Shown here piece by piece: positions 12,942 to 19,591 of a DNA stretch of 23,278 nt. The translations under genes were made by a program, and so were the position numbers. The notes beneath the pieces were generated by a model. The model had not been told where the DNA came from. It searched no databases and worked only from the letters and a program-made list of their open reading frames with translations. How positions within the stretch are numbered: position 1 is the stretch's first letter; the number at the start of each line of letters is the position of its first letter. The stretch is from a virus: the IMG/VR virus record IMGVR_UViG_3300029448_000464, positions 1-23,278 of that record. One strand, written 5' to 3'.

Positions 12942-13041
12942 TGTATATTCCTTTATAATATCTCTACCTTATTTTCCCTTACCCTACCACCCTTAAAGTT
13001 AATACATTTGTCAAATTTGCCCAAGTTCTATTTGGAAAAAA

Positions 13042-13434: not shown

Positions 13435-13480
13435 ATAGGATGGGAGTGAAGTTTAGTAGCTCCCACAACCTATCTTTCTT
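13435..13480 (+). terminator. Terminator-like hairpin after first early gene
   Basis: Starting one base after the stop codon, ATAGG (13435-13439) pairs with CCTAT (13469-13473), and TGGGAG (13441-13446) pairs with CTCCCA (13460-13465) around a 13-nt loop. The small internal loop is A13440 against 13466-13468. A pyrimidine-rich CTTTCTT tail follows (13474-13480). The tail is short and broken by C, so it may be a partial terminator or attenuator. It would let the first gene be expressed at a different level from those after the tRNA. Confidence 0.6.
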
Positions 13481-13498
13481 ATAATTATAGCCTAATTG

Positions 13499-13597
13499 TG
13501 TAGAGTGTCGCTAGTATTTGTGTAAGATATGCTAGTATTATATCTCTATGATATGTATTATTTAGTATTAACTTGGGCATAAACATTGTAAAGTGTC
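13499..13597 (+). repeat. Repeat cluster upstream of the tRNA
   Basis: TGTAGAGTGTC (13499-13509) and TGTAAAGTGTC (13587-13597) are near-identical, and the second abuts the first base of the tRNA. Between them GCTAGTATT occurs at 13510-13518 and 13531-13539, 21 bp apart. A related TAGTATTA lies at 13563-13570, followed by AACTTGGGCA (13570-13579). The stretch 13481-13597 has no gene. Spacing near two and three helical turns suggests binding on one DNA face. It could hold promoter and operator sites for the tRNA and genes downstream. Confidence 0.5.
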
Positions 13598-13666
13598 AGC
13601 AGAGAGAATGGGATTCAATCTAGGCTCATAATCTAGACTCTGGTAGTTCGACTCTACCCTCTGCTA
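13598..13666 (+). tRNA. tRNA-like gene, anticodon CAT, shortened D-arm
   Basis: A 7-bp acceptor stem pairs AGCAGAG (13598-13604) with CTCTGCT (13659-13665). The T-arm is GGTAG / TTCGACT / CTACC (13642-13658). The anticodon arm is CTAGG / CTCATAA / TCTAG (13620-13636, with one G-U pair), giving anticodon CAT at 13627-13629. The D-arm is abnormal: after A13605, GAAT and ATTC pair around a 3-nt GGG loop, so the usual 8-nt-plus D-loop and U8 are missing. CCA is not encoded. It could be a tRNA-Met, a tRNA-Ile whose C34 is modified, or a non-translating tRNA-like element. Total length is 69 nt. Confidence 0.75.
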
Positions 13667-13670
13667 CTAT

Positions 13671-13723
13671 TAAATATCTTAGAAGTCGTAAGACAAAGTT
13701 GAAATGAAACAAATAGATATTTA
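13671..13723 (+). repeat. 9-bp inverted repeat downstream of the tRNA
   Basis: TAAATATCT (13671-13679) and AGATATTTA (13715-13723) are perfect inverted copies with a 35-nt loop that contains a GTC-GTAA-GAC mini-hairpin with a GNRA loop. A T-rich stretch (13724-13732) follows. It may be a processing or termination structure for the tRNA transcript. AT-rich pairing lowers confidence. Confidence 0.4.
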
Positions 13724-13750
13724 TTAATTTTTAATAATAAAGGAGTAATC

Positions 13751-14103: not shown

Positions 14104-14108
14104 AAAAG

Positions 14109-14262
14109 TTAAGGGTGTAAAAATACTTAATTGAACATTTTTTAGTTATATTGTTTAAATAACACAATTGTATGTTTAGTAAAAATAAATAATATAACAA
14201 GAAAAAAGAATGTACAAATAAAAAGTGTTGGCTCACTTTGGCAGGTATGCCTTCACCCTTAA
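14109..14262 (+). ncRNA. Putative branched structured leader RNA
   Basis: Hand pairing gives nested, compatible helices. P1 pairs TTAAGGGTG (14109-14117) with CACCCTTAA (14254-14262), 9 bp. P2 combines 14135-14143 with 14204-14213 (one bulged G at 14208), and then 14145-14157 with 14186-14198 (13 bp, one G-U). P3 pairs 14222-14227 with 14234-14239. P4 pairs 14240-14243 with 14248-14251. The ribosome binding site of the nuclease-like gene follows 9 nt after P1. No gene is seen here on either strand. I do not recognise it as a known riboswitch. P2 is AT-rich and could arise by chance; P1, P3 and P4 contain G-C pairs. Confidence 0.45.
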
Positions 14263-14281
14263 TAAATTATAAGGAGAGACT

Positions 14282-18255: not shown

Positions 18256-18531
18256 ATGGGAAAAATATCACAGAAAGAAACAGATGCTTTAATTAAAGGA
18301 GGAGTTTTATCTCCTAAAGCAGTTAAAGCTATGAAATCTAAAAATATGATTTCTAATAAAAAAACATCTATGAAAAGATTTATGAAAACTACTGATGGAA
18401 CTTATGTAGAACCTAATCTTTATTTTCGTGGAGCAAAAGGAACAACTCCTTCAAAAGAAATGAATGAATTTGTTTCAGAATACAACAAACTAATAGAAAA
18501 ATACACAATAATAAAAAAGGAAAATAAATAA
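18256..18531 (+). CDS. Small basic protein (91 aa), unknown
   Basis: An AAAGGAGAG ribosome binding site precedes the ATG. The N-terminus (ISQKETDALIKGGVLSPKAV, then KAMKSKNMISNKKT) is basic and helical and could be a small helical DNA-binding unit; the later GTYVEPNLYFRGAKGTTPSK is an extended stretch and the end is helical. It lies between an uncharacterised protein and the SSB-like gene, whose start overlaps its stop (TAATG). The place suggests a helper in replication or recombination. No family is recognised. Confidence 0.6.
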   Translation: MGKISQKETDALIKGGVLSPKAVKAMKSKNMISNKKTSMKRFMKTTDGTYVEPNLYFRGAKGTTPSKEMNEFVSEYNKLIEKYTIIKKENK

Positions 18532-19151
18532 TGGCAAAAACACTAGACGCAATATTCGATCCAACAAGTCAATTTGTGCCAATTACAGAAGGTACATATC
18601 CAGCTCATATTATTTCTTTAGTAAGTAAAGAAGTAAATACAAGAGCAGGAGCAGCTATTGTTGTAAATATGCAATATAAAGTAGCAGACGAAGTTCAAGA
18701 AATGGAACAAGCTCTTTATGAAATGGATGGGTATGATTACAAAACTAATAGTAGTGGTGACCGTATTCCTGTTATGAATGGAAAAGGACAAGCTGTTACA
18801 AAATGTAATCATTTAAAAGGTAAAACTTTTTATGATAATGGATTCTTTGTATTTACTGATACTTCATCAGCTAGTAAAAACGCTAGATATTTTCAATTAC
18901 TAGAAGGATTAGAAGTAGAATGTGAAGATGATGAAGGTATAAAGAAACTTGTTTTATTAGAAGAAGAAGATGTTATGGGTAAAGCTGTTATGGTAACAGT
19001 TAAAAAATCTCAATATGTAACTAAAGAAACAAGAGATTTACCTGTAAGTGAACAGATAAAACGAACAACTTTTAAAGTTGCTGTTGTAGATAAATGGAAT
19101 GGAGGTAAAGACATTAGTCAAGATGAACTTGATGATGATGTACCATTCTAA
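18531..19151 (+). CDS. SSB-like single-stranded DNA-binding protein
   Basis: The 206-residue protein ends DDDVPF, almost identical to the acidic tip by which bacterial SSB proteins bind partner proteins (E. coli SSB ends DDDIPF). The body is beta-rich (ITEGTYPAHIISLVSKEVNT, AIVVNMQYKV, KLVLLEEEDVMGKAVMVTVK, TTFKVAVVDKW) as in OB-fold proteins of the DUF669/phage SSB type. It probably coats single strands in phage replication and recombination and recruits the helicase or nuclease by its C-terminus. The gene lies after the annealing protein and before a 146-nt structured leader. A ribosome binding site AAAAGGA precedes it. Confidence 0.8.
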   Translation: MAKTLDAIFDPTSQFVPITEGTYPAHIISLVSKEVNTRAGAAIVVNMQYKVADEVQEMEQALYEMDGYDYKTNSSGDRIPVMNGKGQAVTKCNHLKGKTFYDNGFFVFTDTSSASKNARYFQLLEGLEVECEDDEGIKKLVLLEEEDVMGKAVMVTVKKSQYVTKETRDLPVSEQIKRTTFKVAVVDKWNGGKDISQDELDDDVPF

Positions 19152-19161
19152 ATAAATAACA

Positions 19162-19279
19162 ATATTAGGGTTTTACAATTGAATTATTGATGTTAATTTA
19201 TGTAAATTAGAGGCGAGGGTAGTCATTTTATTTATAATCTTCTCTCTCGTCTCTCCCCTAATGTAAATTGGCTACCCTC
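19162..19279 (+). ncRNA. Putative switching leader RNA after the SSB-like gene
   Basis: Two mutually exclusive folds can be drawn. Fold 1 is a three-way junction: 19162-19170 with 19256-19264 (9 bp, one G-U), 19172-19177 with 19201-19206 (TTTACA/TGTAAA), and 19209-19219 with 19244-19254 (11 bp, two G-U), joined by linkers of only 1-2 nt. Fold 2 pairs 19215-19225 with 19269-19279 (11 bp, one G-U), using bases 19215-19219 that fold 1 needs. The ribosome binding site of the next gene is 6 nt after fold 2. A repeated ATGTAAATT (19200-19208, 19261-19269) is present. It resembles a riboswitch layout but no known class is recognised. No gene lies in 19152-19297. Confidence 0.5.
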
Positions 19280-19297
19280 AATATATAAGGAGACAAA

Positions 19298-19591
19298 ATG
19301 GAAGAATCAACCGCTACAATAAAACTAACAAAAACTGAAATAACAACTTGTATTCAAGCATTTAATAAAGCATTAACAGGTCTTTATGAGTCTGGTGCAG
19401 AAAAAGAATACAGAGTAGATGTTATTATACCTTTGCAGAAAAAAATAAATTTACTATTAAAAGACTATAAAAAAATATTAAATCAAATAAAAGAAGGAGA
19501 GAGAAATGAAGCAGCGAAAAAACAAATATCAGAACAAGCTGAAGAAGAAAATAGGAATGGCAAACAAACTTGCGAAACTTGCTCTGAATGA
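19298..19591 (+). CDS. Small coiled protein (97 aa), unknown
   Basis: A TAAGGAGA ribosome binding site precedes the ATG after the structured leader. The N-terminus has TIKLTKTEITTCIQAFNKAL, then a helix with YRVDVIIPLQKKINLLLKDY, and an acidic, Lys/Glu-rich end (KEGERNEAAKKQISEQAEEE). The end contains CETCSE, a possible CxxC. The last 86 nt overlap the next gene in another frame. The early part looks like a real helical domain; the tail may be loosely constrained by the overlap. Function unknown. Confidence 0.6.
   Translation: MEESTATIKLTKTEITTCIQAFNKALTGLYESGAEKEYRVDVIIPLQKKINLLLKDYKKILNQIKEGERNEAAKKQISEQAEEENRNGKQTCETCSE

Follow-up and report, generated by a model that had tools for sequence, protein, structure and literature searches.

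Organization of the locus downstream of the SSB-like gene

The DNA analyzed here (the window) was the complete 23,278-nt IMG/VR record IMGVR_UViG_3300029448_000464, which belongs to a group of uncultured marine phages. A gene encoding an SSB-like protein was followed on the + strand by a 146-nt gap, within which an earlier note, made from the sequence alone, had proposed a possible new riboswitch. The features of the locus, with the basis on which each was assigned, were as follows.

18531..19151, + strand: SSB-like protein gene, adjoining the element on its upstream side (ORF)
19162..19170, + strand: 5' strand of P1, 9 bp with partner 19256-19264, upstream of the putative promoter (fold; own-versus-swapped pairing)
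19172..19206, + strand: P2 hairpin of the junction, covering most of the DNA from the putative -35 to the putative -10 hexamer (fold)
19179..19184, + strand: putative -35 hexamer TTGAAT (TTG at fixed spacing in relatives)
19203..19208, + strand: putative -10 hexamer TAAATT, with the consensus TA[A/T]NTT in relatives (conservation; recurrence at the late operon)
19209..19219, + strand: 5' strand of P3, 11 bp with partner 19244-19254; 19215-19219 are common to the rival hairpin (fold, covariation)
19215, + strand: transcription start, predicted to within 1 nt (spacing from the -10 hexamer)
19215..19225, + strand: 5' strand of the rival hairpin, 11 bp with partner 19269-19279 (fold, covariation, RNAalifold)
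19244..19264, + strand: CU-rich tract, formed by the 3' strands of P3 and P1 (alignment, fold)
19269..19279, + strand: 3' strand of the rival hairpin (fold, covariation)
19287..19300, + strand: Shine-Dalgarno (SD) sequence AAGGAG and start codon (ATG 19298) of the next gene (sequence)
19298..19591, + strand: first downstream gene, 97 aa, no assigned function (ORF)

The SSB-like gene was thus directly upstream of the element, as the note had placed it, and was also its upstream neighbour in relatives. The protein ended in DELDDDVPF, an acidic tip of the SSB type, and the acidic DVPF tail was kept in all aligned members. It had no Pfam or PHROG match; the best PDB matches of its model were OB-fold or ssDNA-binding proteins with modest scores, the top one being PrgE (E 3.3e-3). 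Downstream of the element, several different small genes were found among relatives, and the gene at 19298-19591 was replaced in some of them. For this gene, Pfam EAD9 (effector-associated domain) scored 21.5 bits, below its cut-off of 25.

Distribution of the element

A close search with the single SSB-like protein returned no relatives, and neither the region nor the protein had a match among phage GenBank records. Relatives were reached via the terminase, for which they were many. SSB-like relatives were present in 24 of 46 larger records, and a profile search yielded 80 loci. In 61 of the 79 sequences examined (near-duplicates and the window counted), the element followed the SSB-like gene, either alone or after another structured element. 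A structure-aware pattern matched 38 stretches, each with a single match and all in contigs of this phage group. The element was seen as one copy per record, nowhere but after the SSB-like gene and in one IMG/VR phage group, a distribution that rests on pattern scans instead of a covariance model, so that very divergent copies could be missed. Stretches outside the group that carried the GTAAATT pattern (L205, L214, L216, L217, and L228) did not fit the element and were taken as chance matches. Three pattern matches in the bacterial collection were likewise assigned to chance; they came from GC-rich records (61-65% GC), and two of them sat inside open frames of at least 597 codons. Rfam gave no match at the gathering threshold in the window and 20 related loci, and only chance-level matches below it (the best had 27.4 bits where 60 were required).

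Two competing folds in the window

P1, P2 (pairs 19172-19177/19201-19206 plus 19180-19186/19194-19200) and P3 formed a three-way junction with linkers of 1, 2 and 1 nt, and the junction fold of 19162-19279 had a minimum free energy of -30.8 kcal/mol. The best fold containing the rival hairpin reached -25.2 kcal/mol, 5.6 kcal/mol weaker. The two folds contested bases 19215-19219 (GAGGG), and the loop of the rival hairpin was about 43 nt long in the window and CU-rich. We found the geometry described in the note to be exact, both in the positions and short linkers of the three helices and in the 11-bp hairpin that shares these five bases with P3. The 118-nt element folded better than shuffled controls, as had also been expected (z = -3.8, with 2 of 200 shuffles equally good). 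The minus strand of the element was unremarkable (z = -1.2). Since folding energy alone was only moderately unusual, with z = -2.8 for the entire 146-nt gap, comparative evidence had to decide.

Covariation of both folds in the sense RNA

Helix pairing statistics were obtained from a 27-row alignment of relatives. In P3, 99.5% of cells were paired and double changes occurred in 3 of 8 pairs, and in the rival hairpin the values were 99.2% and 6 of 10 pairs, so that the covariation anticipated for homologues was present in both. Slid control helices had 39-82% of cells paired and 0-1 double-change pairs, with the exception of one P3 slide that had 2. When the tree of the SSB-like protein was used, four independent pair-keeping double changes were counted in P3 and eight in the rival hairpin; three of the four in P3 fell at pairs 1 and 5, the 5' bases of which precede the predicted start. 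RNAalifold chose the rival hairpin as the consensus of the 27 rows. At the shared base 19215, a change to A in L152 left both partners paired. Among non-Watson-Crick cells, G-U outnumbered A-C by 16 to 3 in P3 and by 49 to 3 in the rival hairpin, which indicates that selection acts on structure in the sense RNA. Both competing folds are real, covarying RNA features selected in the sense RNA.

P1 was misaligned by MAFFT and was therefore tested by pairing its own versus swapped strands, and the own 5' and 3' strands paired better (mean -10.2 versus -6.1 kcal/mol). The P2 hairpin was found in most relatives with weaker support (median shuffle p 0.04); L192, L193, and L199, which are the shortest members, lacked it. 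P1 and P2 both varied in sequence, length and position among relatives. The main conserved unpaired segment was TAANTT, which fits a -10 hexamer.

A promoter-like signal inside the junction

We scanned 25 non-redundant leaders for promoter signals, with rows anchored on TA-nn-TT. TTGnnn-17/18-TAANTT was present in 13 of the 25, with a spacer of 18 in 11 and of 17 in 2. TTG at any other offset was found in at most 3 of the 25 leaders, and shuffled leaders gave it no more than 4 times at spacer 18 and no more than 5 times at any offset. In all anchored relatives the rival hairpin lay 6-7 nt downstream of the TA-nn-TT, and this distance also held where P2 or a clear P3 was lacking (L163, L179, L183, and L181). 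The start predicted from the hexamer, 19215, coincided with the base at which the rival hairpin begins. At the divergent late operon, TTGnnn-16/17-TA(A/G)NTT occurred at a comparable upstream place in most relatives examined. The motif alone was common by chance, with 16 occurrences in the AT-rich window. The -35 TTG was missing in about half of the relatives, namely most of the closest ones (L125-L131), L162, L163, L179 and L183, and L151 and L160. In several lineages TTG and TAA sat in opposite strands of P2, and part of their conservation and spacing could therefore stem from P2. On balance there appears to be a sigma70-like promoter within P2 and its junction, which would start an RNA at ~19215.

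Two RNA forms and their predicted folds

Pairing probabilities were computed for the 25 leaders, with the read-through RNA taken from the SSB stop codon. In the read-through RNA the mean probability was 0.79 for P3 versus 0.17 for the rival hairpin. An RNA from ~19215 cannot form P1-P3, because their 5' strand precedes this position; in the RNA from the predicted +1 the mean probability of the rival hairpin was 0.78. Exceptions were found in both directions: even the +1 RNA did not favour the rival hairpin in L125, L135, and L171, and the read-through RNA favoured it in L160, L162, L163, and L183. SD accessibility was equal in the two forms (0.55 and 0.54, mean of 23 leaders), which argues against SD sequestration and against anti-SD pairing of the CU tract with the downstream SD. 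An intrinsic terminator or attenuator was rejected, the gap having no terminator-like site or U tract. The alternative expression structure suggested previously did not emerge in either form, as neither a switch in SD access nor a terminator-like site was predicted.

The folds with their covariation and action at the RNA level, the promoter-like signal with its spacing, and the fold taken by each RNA form are what was computed here; from them we infer promoter use, the precise position of the start, and the parts that the folds play in stability or processing. In the explanation we prefer, to which we assign about an even chance of being right, the element is an operon boundary at which the start of transcription decides the RNA fold, with the putative promoter inside the first fold. 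A sigma70-like promoter (TTGAAT 19179-19184, TAAATT 19203-19208) would start the small-gene message at ~19215. The GAGGG at the 5' end of this short RNA would fold at once into a 5'-terminal 11-bp stem-loop (19215-19225/19269-19279), most likely shielding the 5' end from 5'-end-dependent decay; the ~43-nt loop is long for a 5' stabiliser and counts against such protection. Read-through RNA from the SSB operon would retain the sequence upstream of the start and form P1, P2 and P3, which would take GAGGG and the CU-rich tract and so exclude the stem-loop. The three-way junction would then most likely stabilise the 3' end of the SSB message or be the site of its processing.

Alternative explanations

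It is possible, if on the unlikely side, that there is no internal promoter, that all RNA reads through, and that the element is a two-state or pseudoknotted regulatory RNA. In one form, P1-P2-P3 would be joined by the 3' strand of the hairpin in a pseudoknot with P3 shortened to GAGAC/GTCTC; a strict pseudoknot with full P3 and full hairpin was excluded, since both need GAGGG (or GAG). In the other form, a protein (e.g. the SSB) or another signal would trigger a switch. The covariation of P3 and the rival hairpin within the same sequences, the L152 change that keeps both partners, and the conservation of all of P1, P2 and P3 fit this reading, and T4 gp32 and gp43, which control their own translation through mRNA structures, offer a precedent (PMC3014915). 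However, the read-through RNA was predicted almost wholly in one fold, SD access did not change, no terminator-like U tract was present, P1 and P2 were freely variable or missing, and the element follows the SSB gene instead of preceding it. The spaced TTG/TAANTT and its recurrence at the late operon would also be left unexplained. Distinctly unlikely is a site of RNase III-type processing or of 3'-end stabilisation between messages, with the hairpin only protecting the processed or new 5' end. P1 and P3 do give up to ~20 nearly stacked bp in the read-through RNA, and in relatives this site is also taken by other structured elements, as if any structure would suffice. Yet the CU tract, GAGGG and TAANTT were more conserved in sequence than a generic helix needs, and the competition with the hairpin would have no explanation.

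The metabolite riboswitch of the earlier note has in its favour a compact three-way junction with a competing hairpin and the conserved bases in the P2/P3 junction (TAANTT). These bases fit a -10 hexamer, however, and the note had itself named a promoter inside the region as a refutation; a putative one, TTGnnn-17/18-TAANTT in P2 and its junction, is largely what was found. The next gene varied among relatives with no metabolic link, no Rfam riboswitch matched at a useful score, and no expression platform acting on the SD or a terminator was found. Instead of a conserved core with a variable periphery, P1 and P2 varied or were missing. What remains of the proposal is a conserved, covarying RNA with two folds that is absent from Rfam; its ligand-sensing aptamer is not borne out, given the promoter-like signal inside, the variable P1 and P2 and the changing downstream gene. 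The element is probably not a ligand-sensing riboswitch, and we regard a metabolite-sensing role as very improbable. Equally remote is an element acting at the DNA level, such as a replication origin or an operator with inverted repeats, to which the adjoining SSB-like gene in the early gene region and the palindromic P2 between two hexamers would lend themselves. The non-Watson-Crick cells were sense-strand G-U and hardly ever A-C, a preference that DNA structure would not have, and the minus-strand fold was unremarkable; a DNA cruciform or operator as the main reading was rejected on the G-U versus A-C counts.

Comparison with known systems

The operon boundary proposed here resembles the leaders of T4 genes e, soc, 49 and I-TevI, in which a late promoter lies inside the 5' strand of an RNA structure specific to read-through; the long early RNA forms the structure and the promoter-initiated RNA cannot (PMC3014915). 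As in the gene e leaders, the promoter (here putative) is in the DNA of the 5' part of the structure, and gating of this type, with the structure only in the read-through RNA, was computed for the inferred start. The T4 structure hides the SD or AUG, whereas SD access was equal here; moreover, the structure of our element is a three-way junction, and its short RNA has a conserved rival hairpin of its own.

The T7 phi10 leader is an example of a 5'-terminal stabilising stem-loop. Hairpins at the 5' end stabilise certain bacterial mRNAs and hinder RppH (PMC3997798). If the predicted start is right, the rival hairpin would resemble the stabilising stem-loops of ompA and papA in being a stem of the first transcribed bases, but it differs in its long CU-rich loop and in having one strand in common with a competing read-through fold. 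The STAXI motif, a tandem pseudoknot repeat, is likewise found near SSB genes (Weinberg 2010; PMC2864571), whereas our element is single-copy and has no Rfam match. Three-way-junction riboswitches share the layout of a junction and a competing hairpin; the variable P1 and P2, the promoter-like signal inside and the lack of a linked metabolic gene set the element apart from them.

If the operon-boundary account is true, it offers a comparative case in which two covarying, competing folds are explained by two RNA starts and not by a ligand, and a warning for covariance-based riboswitch hunting, as a promoter may lie inside a convincing 'aptamer'. A wider proposal, which we consider rather doubtful, is that the regulatory RNA at the SSB operon boundary represents a new class in phages, that its fold changes with the transcription start or with replication-protein binding, that the phage thereby tells apart two messages carrying the same genes, and that it would be one of several interchangeable structured RNAs at the site.

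Other structured elements in the window and its relatives

The site after the SSB gene seems to be a hot spot of structured RNAs, at which different elements replace one another in these uncultured marine phages; in the loci scanned, no Rfam family was recognised among them. In L161, L166, L167, L169, L182, L188, and L191, a different structured element replaced that of the window in the first ~140 nt after the SSB gene. Its closing stem was CTGAGGAGC/GCTCCTCAG, its inner stem showed compensatory changes, 7 of 28 pairs had double changes, and the members scanned had no Rfam match. Two further element types followed the SSB gene in L151, L154, L156, L159, L160, and L202, one with a GGTATTGCCA...TTATGGCTC stem and the other with GTGTTGAAGCG...CAGAGTTCGCCTT; in several relatives they stood in tandem just upstream of a window-type element. 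An element with a AAAGGGGAGT...ACTCCCCTTT stem, in many cases with GTTGGC near its 3' strand, separated the SSB gene from the window-type element in L162-L165, L179, L180, L183, and L189.

Elsewhere in the window, a second structured gap was found at 14104-14281 on the + strand (z = -4.2), with the layout GGGTGTAAAAATA...GTTGGC...TTCACCC and five related copies, in L097, L014, L018, L029, and L039. The upstream region of the late operon, at 12942-13040 on the minus strand and also in relatives, carried TTGnnn-17-TAACTT followed by a G-rich start, GGGTGGTAGGGTAAGGG, which is possibly quadruplex-forming. A tRNA-Met(CAT) gene was located at 13598-13667, in the gap 13435-13750.
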